Assembly (NCBI GenBank): GCA_022763425.1
Contig: JALEGD010000001.1
Span: forward strand, 944,572 to 1,008,571
Reading direction: 5' to 3'
DNA from: Pelagibacteraceae bacterium
GTDB lineage: Bacteria; Pseudomonadota; Alphaproteobacteria; Pelagibacterales; Pelagibacteraceae
DNA: 64,000 bases
Position numbers and translations under genes: made by a program. The notes under the pieces were generated by a model. That model searched no databases. It was not told where the DNA came from and saw nothing but the letters and a program-made list of their open reading frames with translations. Below, in pieces: positions 44,475-49,590 of the stretch (its first letter is position 1; every line of letters begins with the position of its first letter).

Positions 44475-45671
44475 TTATTTATGATTTAAAAAGTTTCTTT
44501 CAACACACATGGCGATACCCATACCGCCACCAACGCAAAGAGTAGCTAAACCTTTTTTAGCTTTTTTCTTTTGCATTTCGTGAAGTAAAGTAACAAGAAC
44601 TCTAGCACCAGATGCACCAATTGGGTGTCCTAATGCAATCGCTCCGCCATTTACGTTTACTCTGTCAGGTGTGAAACCTAATTCTTTATTGACTGCAATC
44701 GCTTGAGCAGCAAATGCTTCGTTAGCTTCAATCAAATCTAACTGATCTTCACCCCAACCCGCTTTTTCTAAAGCTTTCTTAGAAGCCGGAATTGGACCTG
44801 TTCCCATAATTGAAGGGTCAACACCGCATACAGCCCAAGAAACAATTTTAGCAATTGGTTCAATATCTCTATTTTTAGCTTCTTCAGCAGTCATTAAAAC
44901 TACTGCTGCAGCACCATCATTAATACCAGATGCGTTTCCTGCAGTTACTGTTCCATCTTTTTTAAAAGCTGGACGAAGTTTGGCTAATTTCTCAACTGTT
45001 ACACCGTCTTTTGGATATTCGTCCGTATCAAAAGTTATTTCATCTTTTTTAACTTTGATTTTTACTGGTACGATTTCATCTTTAAATTTTTTCCCTTTAA
45101 TTGCCTCAACTGCTTTTCTTTGAGAAGCTGCAGCAAAAGCATCTTGGTCTTCTTTTGTAATTTGATACTTTTCAGCTACGTTTTCAGCAGTCACACCCAT
45201 GTGATAATCATTCATCGCACAAGTTAGGCCATCTTTAATCATTGAGTCTTCAAGTGTACCAGGGCCCATTTTAATTCCGTTTCTTATATTAACCAAATGC
45301 GGAGCATTACTCATACTTTCTTGTCCACCGCATACAGCAATTTTAGCTTCACCTAAAAGAATAGAATTATAACCATATCCAACTGAAGTTAATCCGGAAG
45401 CACATAATTGGTTTACTGTACAAGAAATTGTTTCATTTGGAATTCCTGCAGCAATGGCAGCTTGTCTTGCTGGGTTCTGTTTAGAACCAGCTTGTAAAAC
45501 TTGACCCATAAATACAGTATCAACTTCTTCGCCTTTAATTTCTGAGTGCTCTAAACACTTTTTAATGACTTCTGCGCCTAACTCTGGAGCTGATTTTGAA
45601 GATAAGCTTCCTCCAAAAGATCCAATTGCAGTTCTAAAAGCACTTGTGATTACTATTTCTTTATTTGACAT
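44475..45671 (-). CDS. phaA: Acetyl-CoA acetyltransferase (beta-ketothiolase) PhaA
   Basis: Condenses two acetyl-CoA to acetoacetyl-CoA, the first step of PHB synthesis. The acyl cysteine lies in [10 protein letters not shown], the histidine in [16 protein letters not shown] and the base cysteine in [10 protein letters not shown]. The 398 residues are typical. A strong AAGGAG ribosome site lies in the 25-bp gap after phaB. With phaB, phasin, phaC and phaR nearby, the biosynthetic role is well supported. Confidence 0.94.
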
Positions 45672-45696: not shown

Positions 45697-46425
45697 TTAT
45701 TGCATATACTGACCACCATTAATATTCATGGTAGCACCCGTAATAAATCCTGCTTCTTCACTGCAAAGATAACTTGCTAAAGCTGCAATTTCACTAGGTT
45801 CAGCCAATCTTCCTACCGGAATTTGACCAACGATACCTTGTAAAATTTTTGGATCAATTTTTTTAACCATATCTGTTCCAACATAACCTGGAGCGATAAT
45901 ATTTACTGTAATTCCTTTATTTGCATTTTCTTGAGCAATAGCTTTTGTAAAACCAATTAAACCTGCTTTTGCAGCAGAATAGTTTGCTTGACCGATTTGA
46001 CCTTTGACACCATTGATAGAACTTAAACTTACAATTCTACCCCAGCCATTTTTTCTCATTCCTTCAATAACGTTTCTTGTTACGTTAAATACAGAATTTA
46101 AATTTGTCTTTATAACTGCATCCCATTCTTCAACTGCCATCTTGTGTAAGAACCTATCTTTTGTAATACCTGCGTTATTGATTACGATATCAATAGTTCT
46201 TCCAAAATCTTGTTGAATTTGATCTATTGCATTTTTGCAACTTTCAAAATATGCAACGTCAAATTTGTATGTTTTAATACCTGTTTCTTTAGAATATTTT
46301 TCTGCTGCTTCTGGATGACCGATGTATGTTGAGATAACTTCATGACCATCTTTTTGTAATTTATCAGCTATTGCCGCTCCAATTCCTCTTGTACCACCTG
46401 TAACTAATGCTAATCTTTTTATCAT
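45697..46425 (-). CDS. phaB: Acetoacetyl-CoA reductase PhaB
   Basis: NADPH-dependent reduction of acetoacetyl-CoA to (R)-3-hydroxybutyryl-CoA, the PHB monomer. It is a short-chain dehydrogenase with TGGTRGIG at the N-terminus, NNAGITKDRFLHKM (a PhaB-type segment), and the Ser-Tyr-Lys set in SLSSINGVKGQIGQANYSAA. The 242 residues end INGGQYMQ. FabG was considered, but context between phaA and phasin favours PhaB. No clear Shine-Dalgarno precedes it. Confidence 0.92.
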   Translation of the reverse strand: MIKRLALVTGGTRGIGAAIADKLQKDGHEVISTYIGHPEAAEKYSKETGIKTYKFDVAYFESCKNAIDQIQQDFGRTIDIVINNAGITKDRFLHKMAVEEWDAVIKTNLNSVFNVTRNVIEGMRKNGWGRIVSLSSINGVKGQIGQANYSAAKAGLIGFTKAIAQENANKGITVNIIAPGYVGTDMVKKIDPKILQGIVGQIPVGRLAEPSEIAALASYLCSEEAGFITGATMNINGGQYMQ

Positions 46426-46458: not shown

Positions 46459-46505
46459 CTACAAGGTTAGATTATAAATTAGGGGAGAGAAATCTAACCT
46501 TGTAG
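46459..46505 (-). terminator. 15-bp perfect hairpin after the phasin gene
   Basis: CTACAAGGTTAGATT (46459-46473) and its exact complement (46491-46505) form a 15-bp stem with a 17-base loop, 13 bases past the phasin stop. The minus-strand sequence after it (TAACAAC) has no T tract, so it is not a classical intrinsic terminator. It may stabilise the phasin 3' end, serve as a processing site between phasin and phaB, or terminate weakly. Confidence 0.6.
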
Positions 46506-46518
46506 ATAATTACTAAAA

Positions 46519-46986
46519 TTAGTTTTTAGTAGTTTCAGCTTTAACAGTAGCTTTAGCAGTTTCTTCAGAAACAACTTTTTTAAGCTCAGTTAAACCATCT
46601 AAAAATCTAGTATTTAGAATTTGGTATGCTTCTTGAGCAGTTTTTTCATTGATTTTAGATAATTCAGCAACGTTTTTTTGTGCTTCCACGATTGCTTTTT
46701 TAACTAATTCAATTGATTTAGCTGCTGATTCTTGAGTATTACCTTTTGCAACTTCAGAAGTAGCATCTTTTGCGCTAGAAATAGCTGCATTTAAGATTTC
46801 TACTTGTTTGCCTGCGAAAGCGTTTACACCTTCGAAAACAGCTTTAGATGCACCAGCAACCGCTTCAAGAGTTTTCTTTTGAGCGTCAATGTAGCTAGAT
46901 GAATTAAGATCTACATTTGGTAATTTAGCTGCTGATAATACTTTTTGAAAATCAAACATTTCAAATGGATTGTTAGCGTTGAACAT
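46519..46986 (-). CDS. phaP: Phasin (PHB granule-associated protein)
   Basis: Amphipathic protein coating PHB granules. The frame opens at 47019, but the ATG at 46986 has a strong AAGGAG site six bases upstream and begins MFNANNPFEMFDFQK like other alphaproteobacterial phasins, so it was chosen (155 residues). The body is helical and alanine-rich (AVAGASKAVFEGVNAFAGKQ, with heptad-like continuation) as in the Phasin_2 family. Its codon and amino-acid make-up is richer in A/G than its neighbours, typical of an abundant protein. Its promoter overlaps a palindrome likely bound by PhaR. Confidence 0.88.
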   Translation of the reverse strand: MFNANNPFEMFDFQKVLSAAKLPNVDLNSSSYIDAQKKTLEAVAGASKAVFEGVNAFAGKQVEILNAAISSAKDATSEVAKGNTQESAAKSIELVKKAIVEAQKNVAELSKINEKTAQEAYQILNTRFLDGLTELKKVVSEETAKATVKAETTKN

Positions 46987-47029
46987 ATTGTTCTCCTTGT
47001 TTTTGTTGTTGTTACTCATAATTGAGGAT

Positions 47030-47058
47030 CATATATATTGCGATGCGCAATATATCAA
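47030..47058 (-). promoter_or_regulatory. Phasin promoter with embedded palindrome (candidate PhaR operator)
   Basis: On the minus strand TTGATA (47058-47053), 17-base spacer and TATATG (47035-47030) form a promoter for the phasin gene. A perfect 10-bp inverted repeat ATATATTGCG / CGCAATATAT with a three-base centre (47033-47055) fills the spacer and overlaps both elements, so a bound repressor would block polymerase. PhaR is known to repress phasin genes in PHB-forming alphaproteobacteria. Confidence 0.6.
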
Positions 47059-47110
47059 TAGATAAAATTAAATAATTTTATAAGTTATTGAATTTATTTA
47101 ATTTTTTTTA

Positions 47111-47161
47111 TGTGCGTGGCACAATAATATATTGCAATGTAAAAAAATATGTTGCAATTGC
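47111..47161. promoter_or_regulatory. Cluster of TGC/GCA inverted repeats upstream of phaC
   Basis: Three related elements precede phaC: TGTGC-GTG-GCACA (47111-47123), ATTGCAAT (47131-47138) and TTGCAATTGC (47152-47161). The last two are spaced about two helical turns apart. TGC-N3-GCA resembles PhaR sites described in Paracoccus/Rhodobacter (CTGC-N3/4-GCAG). Probable operators for phaC-phaR autoregulation. Confidence 0.45.
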
Positions 47162-47206
47162 TCATAAAAACAAATTAAATAAAGTTAAAGATTAAAGGGT
47201 TAATAT

Positions 47207-49075
47207 ATGAAGAAAGAAAATAAGACCGTAGATTTTGCTCAAATTCAAACACCAAATTTTGATCAACTTAATGATATATTTCAAAATAACCTAAAAATTT
47301 ACAATAACTTTGTAAGTAATATTTCGACAACTAATCATTCAAATAATAAATCAGAAAAAACTAATGGAAAAACAAACGGTCAAAACTTTACCCCGGTTGA
47401 TCTTTTAAATTTAATTAATCCAACAACATCAAAAATTACGAACTCTTTATTTGATATTTCGAGTAAAATGACTACCGCACCAGATGTTTACTATCAACAT
47501 ATCAATAAATGGATACAAGAAATTACATCATTAAACTTTTACTTTATTTCACGTTTATCTAATAAGCCCGCTGATCCAGTAGCGATACCAGATAAGACAG
47601 ATAAGAGATTTGCAACACCTGAATGGTCTGAAAATCTTTTCTTTGATTTTATTAAACAATTCTATCTTTTAACATCTCGTATGATGGATAACATTGTTGA
47701 TTCATTGGAGCATATTGATCCTAAACAAAAAAAATTAATTAAATTTTATACAAACCAAATTAACGCGGCTTTTTCACCTACTAACTTTGTTGCAACCAAT
47801 CCTGAAGTTTTAAACCAAACTATAAAAGAAGGTGCCCAAAACTTAGTAAGAGGTTTTGAAAACTTTAGAAAAGATTATTTAAAACATCCAAACAAAATGT
47901 TTATCTCACAAACAGCTGATGAATTTACTGTTGGAGAAAATATTGGAAACACTAAAGGGTCTGTAATTTTTAAAAATAATGTATTTGAATTAATTCATTA
48001 CACTCCGAAGACTAAACAGCAGTTTGCAAAACCTATGCTGATTATTCCTCCATTCATTAACAAATTTTACATCATGGATTTAAATGAAAAAAAATCTATG
48101 ATTAAATATTTATTAGAGAGTAATCAAAATACTTTTTTAATCTCTTGGAAAAATCCTAAATCGGATAGTAAAGACTTTGGATTTAATGAATATATCAATG
48201 ATGGTGTATTAAAAGCATTAGAGATTGTATGCAAAGAAACGGGTGCTGAAGGAGCAAACACTGCATCATACTGTGTTGGCGGAACATTAACATCTATGGT
48301 TCTTGCTCATATGGCTAATCTAAAAAATAATAAATATAAAATTTTATCATCTACTTTTTTCACTAGTTTAGTTGATTTTACTGAACCAGGTGATCTTGGT
48401 GTGTTTATTAGTGAAGAACAGATCAATATGATTGAAAGACAAATGAAGGGCAAAGGTTACTTTGATGGAAAAGATATGGCTGCATGCTTTAACTTTTTAA
48501 GACCAGGCGATCTTTACTGGAATTATGTAATAAATAATTATTTAAAAGGTAGTCAGCCCACTGCATTTGACATGCTTTATTGGAATAGTGACTCAACTAG
48601 AATTCCAGAGGTTCTTCATAGTGATTATTTAAGATCAATGTATTTAAATAATCTACTGGTTAAAAAAGAATATGATTTTAATGGAAACATTTTAGATATG
48701 TCTAAAATTTCTACTCCAATGTTCCATGTAGCAACAACTGATGATCATATTGCTCCTTGGAAATCGGTTTTCATGGGATTATCTCAATATAAAAGTAATA
48801 TAGAATTTACTCTTGCTAATTCTGGCCATATTGCTGGTATTATTCAGGGAAAAGGTGCAAAACCAGGTAAGCAATATTACTTCGAGAACAATAAATTAGA
48901 AAAAGACTCTGAAAAATGGTTAGAAGGCTCAAAAAGAGTTGAGGGTTCTTGGTGGCCTAAATGGACCGAATGGTTAAAAAAATATTCTGGTGATTTAAAA
49001 GATATCAATGAAATTAATTTAAATAATTTCAAAGAACTATATAAAGCTCCCGGAAAATACGTATTAGAAAAATAA
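47207..49075 (+). CDS. phaC: Class I polyhydroxyalkanoate synthase PhaC
   Basis: Polymerises (R)-3-hydroxyacyl-CoA into PHA. The 622 residues have a variable N-terminal part (1-130) and an alpha/beta-hydrolase domain with the nucleophile cysteine in ASYCVGGTL (about residue 357), the aspartate in TTDDHIAPW and the histidine in NSGHIAGII. The usual G-x-C-x-G-G box has serine at the first position. Length fits class I. The phaR gene starts in its stop (TAATG). An AAGGG site precedes the ATG. Confidence 0.94.
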   Translation: MKKENKTVDFAQIQTPNFDQLNDIFQNNLKIYNNFVSNISTTNHSNNKSEKTNGKTNGQNFTPVDLLNLINPTTSKITNSLFDISSKMTTAPDVYYQHINKWIQEITSLNFYFISRLSNKPADPVAIPDKTDKRFATPEWSENLFFDFIKQFYLLTSRMMDNIVDSLEHIDPKQKKLIKFYTNQINAAFSPTNFVATNPEVLNQTIKEGAQNLVRGFENFRKDYLKHPNKMFISQTADEFTVGENIGNTKGSVIFKNNVFELIHYTPKTKQQFAKPMLIIPPFINKFYIMDLNEKKSMIKYLLESNQNTFLISWKNPKSDSKDFGFNEYINDGVLKALEIVCKETGAEGANTASYCVGGTLTSMVLAHMANLKNNKYKILSSTFFTSLVDFTEPGDLGVFISEEQINMIERQMKGKGYFDGKDMAACFNFLRPGDLYWNYVINNYLKGSQPTAFDMLYWNSDSTRIPEVLHSDYLRSMYLNNLLVKKEYDFNGNILDMSKISTPMFHVATTDDHIAPWKSVFMGLSQYKSNIEFTLANSGHIAGIIQGKGAKPGKQYYFENNKLEKDSEKWLEGSKRVEGSWWPKWTEWLKKYSGDLKDINEINLNNFKELYKAPGKYVLEK

Positions 49076-49590
49076 TGATTGAAATCAAAAAATACTCAAA
49101 CAGACGATTATATAATACTGAAACCAGCTCTTATATTACTCAAGAAGATATTGTTGCTTTAATTAAGCAGGGCAAACAATTTAAAATCAAAGATGTTGAA
49201 TCTAAAAAAGATATTACTTCAAGTATCTTAACTCAAATTGTTTTGGAAAGAGAAACTACTGGGACGAATTTAATTCCTGAAGAGTTTTTAAAACAAATTA
49301 TTCTTTTTTATGAAAACGATAGATCTTCAGAAATGTTTGGTTTTTTAAATAATGTGATGAATTTTGCTGATGCAAATAAATTTTTTAATAATGGTTTTCA
49401 AAATATAATGAAATTTAATCCATTTGATTTTCAAAGTTACTTTAACCAGAACTCTAATTCAAAAACTCAGCAAGAAACGCCCCCACCTGATAATAATCCA
49501 GAAAAAGATGCAGAAATCTCAAAACTGGCTGATCAGATTGATCAACTAAAATCTGAAATAAATAAATTAAATAAAGAAAAAGTTAGTTAA
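49075..49590 (+). CDS. phaR: PHA synthesis repressor PhaR
   Basis: DNA- and PHB-binding repressor that senses free polymer and controls phasin and its own gene. The N-terminal PHB accumulation regulator domain (IEIKKYSNRRLYNTETSSYI and the following ~45 residues) is highly characteristic. The C-terminal part includes a hydrophobic middle and a final coiled coil (about 147-168). The 171 residues are normal. It is translationally coupled to phaC, and its stop overlaps that of pyrC by eight bases. Confidence 0.93.
   Translation: MIEIKKYSNRRLYNTETSSYITQEDIVALIKQGKQFKIKDVESKKDITSSILTQIVLERETTGTNLIPEEFLKQIILFYENDRSSEMFGFLNNVMNFADANKFFNNGFQNIMKFNPFDFQSYFNQNSNSKTQQETPPPDNNPEKDAEISKLADQIDQLKSEINKLNKEKVS

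Follow-up and report, generated by a model that had tools for sequence, protein, structure and literature searches.

What controls PHB storage in SAR11, and does a palindrome in front of a phasin gene take part in it? SAR11 genomes contain few regulators. PHB was reported in the SAR11 strain LSUCC0530 in a 2025 study, the accessible text of which describes no obvious regulator (PMC12113158). We analysed a 64-kb stretch of DNA (64,000 nucleotides; hereafter the window) from a single-contig genome of 1,211,322 bp, which is a member of SAR11 subclade IIIa and belongs to the same genus as G006. The window carries phaA, phaB and phaP on the minus strand, and phaC and phaR on the plus strand. It was aligned with further phaP/phaC regions of the brackish IIIa and freshwater LD12 types of SAR11 to give a set of 19 (the window, 15 relatives, and L115, L120 and L128). 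This set leaves out G056/L067 (contig without phaP), G007, G014 and G027 (no phaC found) and five further distant records. The features of the locus, in window coordinates, are as follows.

44475–45671, minus strand: phaA-like thiolase gene (Pfam thiolase domains).
45697–46425, minus strand: phaB-like short-chain dehydrogenase gene (Pfam adh_short and adh_short_C2).
46519–46986, minus strand: phasin gene phaP (PF09361, 36.8 bits).
47030–47035, minus strand: −10 hexamer TATATG of the putative phaP promoter (TA at the same offset, 17 nt from the −35 hexamer, in 19 of 19 regions).
47033–47055, no strand assigned: site 1, the palindrome of the sequence-only reading (consensus match at 47033–47053; core TGCGATGCG at 47039–47047, centre 47043; core in 19 of 19 regions).
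47053–47058, minus strand: −35 hexamer TTGATA of the putative phaP promoter (TTG at the same offset in 19 of 19 regions).
47107–47127, no strand assigned: site 2, TTTATGTGCGTGGCACAATAA, a PhaR-like site towards phaC (14.9 bits, the top matrix score of the window).
47127–47147, no strand assigned: site 3, ATATATTGCAATGTAAAAAAA, a weaker PhaR-like site (10.35 bits, rank 8; one mismatch in the YGCRNYGCR core).
47147–47167, no strand assigned: site 4, ATATGTTGCAATTGCTCATAA, half-site-like and doubtful (4.1 bits, rank 133).
47207–49075, plus strand: PHB synthase gene phaC (PF07167, 206.6 bits).
49075–49590, plus strand: phaR-like gene (PF07879, 86.1 bits, cut-off 25; TIGR01848, 107.8 bits, cut-off 109.45).

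The phaP start is probably at 46986, which AAGGAG precedes, and not at 47019, where the ORF finder had placed it. In most relatives the match to the long ORF begins at its residues 7–18, which supports the shorter start. The phaB and phaA genes probably share the phaP transcript, in what we infer to be an operon. In the phaP–phaB gap (46459–46505, minus strand) lies a hairpin of 15 uninterrupted pairs with the loop TCTCTCCCCTAATTTAT. All 18 genomes that have phaP and phaB contain a hairpin whose apical loop includes at least CCC, as counted by a script that looked specifically for such a C-rich loop; stem letters differ between genera. Other hairpins with as many or more pairs (one mismatch allowed) exist in the window, and a comparison of the phaP–phaB hairpin with Rfam gave no match at gathering thresholds. 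The hairpin could act on the phaP portion of the transcript, either stabilizing or limiting it. Inspection by eye showed that the C-rich loop can pair with the ribosome site of phaB in some relatives but not in the window, and this idea was dropped.

The sequence-only reading had placed a PhaR gene 2 kb from the palindrome, and the ORF at 49075–49590 does carry the PhaR DNA-binding domain PF07879 (PHB_acc_N), well over the curated cut-off. The score against the NCBIfam equivalog model TIGR01848 is short of its cut-off by 1.65 bits, and we therefore name the product a PhaR-like, PF07879-domain protein, which probably works like PhaR. Three other SAR11 homologues scored 90.6, 100.7 and 103.8 bits, so that all four tested fall under the TIGR01848 cut-off. 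Model-based annotation may thus miss SAR11 PhaR, and these sub-cut-off scores may explain why phaR was overlooked in SAR11. Within the domain, 28–31 of 57–58 residues are identical to those of the six other alphaproteobacteria whose phaR loci were translated on the correct strand. A search for a solved structure of a PhaR homologue returned two matches only, both to unrelated proteins (E values of 0.2 and 0.92). The phaR-like gene is the likely source of a protein that would bind sites 1–3.

The palindrome, ATATATTGCGATGCGCAATATAT, is an inverted repeat at 47033–47055 with perfect 10-bp arms (47033–47042 and 47046–47055) separated by 3 nt. On the minus strand, the phaP promoter would consist of TTGATA at 47058–47053, a 17-nt spacer at 47052–47036 and TATATG at 47035–47030. 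The perfect repeat that had been described is present. At 23 bp it exceeds the 17-nt spacer and extends 3 nt into each hexamer, so that it does more than fill the spacer; the conserved dyad is centred on 47043, not on 47044. The 10-bp inverted repeat occurs once in the window at ≤3 mismatches, whereas shuffled windows contain a mean of 0.01 (1 of 100 shuffles had any match). A simple sigma-70 scan of the window, which requires T at the last −10 position, did not list the TATATG promoter; it found 15 promoter-like sites, fewer than in shuffles (mean, 28.0). Promoter consensus alone therefore proves nothing here, and we used conservation instead.

All 19 regions share, at fixed offsets from the core, TTGNNN, a 17-nt spacer that holds YGCRNYGCR, and TANNNN. 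The assignment of TTGATA-N17-TATATG as the phasin promoter is supported by this exact spacing, and the palindrome does recur before the PHB genes of relatives, in the form of its core at the same promoter position. Invariant columns of the alignment make up 16 of 29 in 47030–47058 versus 6 of 48 in 47059–47106; elsewhere they number 2 of 40 in the leader, 0 of 21 in site 2, 4 of 20 in site 3, 1 of 20 in site 4 and 0 of 39 in 47168–47206. The site might instead serve mainly the divergent phaC–phaR promoter, with the phasin promoter elsewhere, given that both sides share the intergenic region and that the phaC promoter was not located (a search by eye gave several candidates, none of which was settled). 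We regard this as extremely unlikely, as the TTG-17-TA arrangement surrounds the core on the phaP side in every one of the 19 regions. Two members of the comparison deserve mention. In G012, phaC is followed immediately by a PF07879 gene, and the phaP promoter contains a canonical PhaR site. L128 (SXSU01000136.1), titled as a Bdellovibrionales metagenome-assembled genome, carries LD12-type phaP and phaC with a canonical site, and is probably a mis-binned SAR11 contig.

The same alignment locates the dyad. The conserved form, TGCG-A-TGCG, is centred on 47043, and TTGC-RNY-GCAA, with its centre at the base aligned with 47043, is present in 14 of the 19 regions. Four regions of the window's genus (the window, L052, L053 and L054) have TTGC-RNYGC-GCAA, a form that re-centres the outer arms on 47044 and leaves the core and the promoter spacing unmoved; the perfect 10-bp palindrome with the 47044 centre was found only in this genus. 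The L115 site reads GTGCGATGCAC, and TATATTGCRNYGCGCAA is present in 4 of 197 genomes (G000, G003, G004 and G006). The dyad used by PhaR is thus probably one base away from that drawn in the sequence-only reading. Substitutions around an unmoved core would explain the form of the operator in the window's genus; a 2-bp insertion in the operator offset by a 2-bp deletion beside the −35 hexamer was considered and rejected, as the alignment needs no gap there.

Site 1 was compared with published PhaR sites, each taken from the accessible portion of the respective paper. It matches the Sinorhizobium meliloti PhaR consensus WNWDDNYGCRNYGCRNHHWNW (PMC12542648) at 47033–47053 with 0 mismatches, and agrees with the Bradyrhizobium diazoefficiens footprint consensus TGCRNYGCASMA at 11 of 12 positions; by reading, it departs from the Ralstonia eutropha motif YTKNTGCRNYGCANMAR at four positions, where the authors of that motif allowed three. 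Taken alone, the S. meliloti consensus match does not exceed chance (0.38 matches expected per window; a match in 30 of 100 shuffles); the case rests on conservation. We also built a weight matrix from 18 sites in promoters marked 'Efficient' in Table 3 of the same paper, excluding exoH sites 1 and 4 and the acyP mirror row (PMC12542648; table as accessible). The two top matches in the 64 kb are sites 2 and 1, both in the phaP/phaC intergenic region. The window has three matches of ≥13 bits, whereas 30 shuffles averaged 1.4 and had at most 3; when each region was shuffled 1,000 times, its top matrix score was reached in 0 to 12 shuffles (3 of 1,000 for the window, for site 2). The exact consensus occurs six times in the whole genome, and only site 1 is outside a reading frame; the other five matches lie within reading frames, downstream of a start codon. 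The shorter pattern TGCRNYGCA occurs 19 to 23 times per genome (three genomes counted). The level of the consensus match is the point in favour of a functionless chance palindrome in AT-rich DNA. Set against it, position and core are kept in 19 of 19 regions while PhaC identity to the window protein falls to 54% among the regions compared, which makes chance very unlikely, and we give this explanation almost no weight.

An operator of PhaR is expected to have the core YGCRNYGCR within AT-rich arms (as in the S. meliloti consensus), to lie in a PHB-gene promoter, usually that of a phasin gene, and to occur together with phaR. The stretch 47033–47053 has this core and such arms, and it lies in the spacer of TTGATA-17-TATATG before a PF09361 gene. 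The third property was found in family f1 (118 genomes, G000–G117). PF07879 was detected in 32 of the 197 genomes searched, 20 of them in f1, and 17 of these 20 have phaC; no phaC-bearing f1 genome was without PF07879. The pattern TATRTTGCRNYGCAA is present in 14 of 20 PhaR-positive and 6 of 98 PhaR-negative f1 genomes, and in none of the 53 genomes from the sister family f2. All 14 PhaR-positive genomes with the pattern have a copy outside coding sequence (a call that for G014, G027 and G028 means that the copy precedes the first start codon in an open frame). The six PhaR-negative genomes contain seven copies, all of them coding: six follow a start codon, and the seventh, in G079, is in a gene that is cut by the contig end and homologous to that of G060. 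When the 13-bp form is included, a non-coding site is found in 18 of 20 PhaR-positive versus 0 of 98 PhaR-negative genomes (the Fisher value of 2e-19 overstates the case, as related genomes are not independent). The two PhaR-positive genomes without one are G007, which has only degenerate sites in the phaR–phaA gap, and G056, in which the contig ends before phaP. Among 26 genomes from other families of the class, with position disregarded, the pattern fails to separate the two groups, being present in 6 of 12 genomes with PF07879 and in 5 of 14 without. One genome of the class from another family, G196, has six matches to TATRTTGCRNYGCAA and no reported PF07879 match; the one copy looked at is within an open stop-to-stop frame.

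PhaR and the PHB genes are mostly found in the same genomes, and co-occurrence cannot fully separate them. The palindrome could accordingly serve as operator for another regulator of the PHB genes, with PhaR acting elsewhere. Two observations speak against this. The core is the published PhaR core, and the site stays with phaR in two genomes, G014 and G027, in which neither phaC nor phasin was found. In G014 (L057), G027 (L060) and G007 (L055), phaR lies beside a thiolase gene, and searches for phaC and phasin found neither (the phasin search covered seven genomes and had no positive control; G014 and G027 are 85% and 79% complete). G014 and G027 have a canonical PhaR site in the 52-nt thiolase–phaR gap, upstream of the first start codon. 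In these two genomes the site therefore goes with phaR, not with phasin, and we consider a different regulator unlikely. As a tentative idea, PhaR may outlive PHB in some SAR11, where it would regulate thiolase and acetoacetyl-CoA flux and sense something other than PHB granules.

The proposal that the palindrome is a PhaR site is favoured by its exact fit to the S. meliloti consensus, by a core kept in all 19 regions and by non-coding copies that track PhaR in the family. We are fairly confident that it is a PhaR operator, from which PhaR would occlude the phaP promoter until newly forming PHB pulls the protein off. When little PHB is present, a PhaR dimer would occupy the YGCRNYGCR core within the 17-nt spacer, cover both hexamers and block RNA polymerase. 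Once PHB starts to form, PhaR would be pulled to the granule and the phaP promoter would open, and phasin would then be made, probably with phaB and phaA on one transcript. Such release has precedents in the accessible parts of two studies: PHB almost abolished binding by B. diazoefficiens PhaR in vitro (PMC6201568), and in S. meliloti accumulated PHB sequesters PhaR and relieves repression (PMC12542648). PhaR might also bind here and activate phaP, or both activate and repress it, as R. eutropha PhaR has a dual role, repressing phaP1 and activating phaP3 (PMC12849132, available text). This is improbable for the window, where the site covers the promoter itself; in the activated R. eutropha gene, the same text places the sites at about −70, at about −200 and in the coding region.

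Repression by PhaR may extend to the divergent genes through the additional sites, which the sequence-only reading does not mention. Site 1 and site 2 are 74–76 nt apart by alignment in 18 of 19 regions (80 nt in L115), and site 2 and site 3 are 20 nt apart, distances near seven and two helical turns, respectively. A second site of ≥8.3 bits is present in 10 of 19 regions, and canonical second and third sites are absent in 9 of 19. In the nine LD12-type regions, the positions of the further sites mostly have TTGC-N4-GCAA-like spacing and poor scores. As the further sites are canonical in one group and poorly spaced and scoring in the other, autoregulation of phaC–phaR is likely in the window and IIIa-type genomes, where these sites would probably let PhaR damp phaC–phaR too, and doubtful in LD12-type genomes.

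These results bear on how PHB storage in SAR11 is regulated. On the comparative evidence, the repressor PhaR, which senses granules, very probably docks at the site in the phasin promoter. The term 'phaR' has no occurrence in the accessible text of two SAR11 PHB papers, including the main text of the LSUCC0530 study (PMC12113158), and literature searches (with subscription papers and preprints outside their coverage) returned no report of PhaR control in SAR11. The LSUCC0530 genome appears to carry both a PhaR-like gene and the phaP-promoter site. In the available text on this strain, the fraction of granule-bearing cells is similar irrespective of nutrients (PMC12113158); constant expression across nutrients is compatible with PhaR control, because PhaR would follow granules. 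PHB storage in SAR11, lately described without obvious control, is thus probably controlled by a PhaR encoded by an adjacent gene.

The proposed operator resembles and differs from those of known PhaR systems, as described in the accessible portions of three papers. Like the phaP1 and phaP2 operators of S. meliloti PhaR (AniA), it follows the consensus WNWDDNYGCRNYGCRNHHWNW, has AT-rich arms and lies in a phasin promoter; a site in the exoH promoter region of that species, AAATATTGCGGGGCGCAATTT, shares the TTGC-N5-GCAA shape with the window site (PMC12542648). In S. meliloti, two sites flank the −35 of the phasin gene, whereas in the window one site fills the space between −35 and −10, and phaP is, unlike in S. 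meliloti, divergent from phaC–phaR (PMC12542648). At B. diazoefficiens phaP1 and phaP4, the footprinted TGCRNYGCASMA is next to or over the −35 of the phasin promoter; at one of these 12 positions the window site carries G in place of A, and it is located between the two hexamers (PMC6201568). The R. eutropha phaP1 and phaP3 sites are likewise degenerate palindromes built around one central base; each gene has several, and they are associated with phasin-gene repression, but unlike the window site they are placed next to the −35 and near the start or at a greater distance (PMC12849132).
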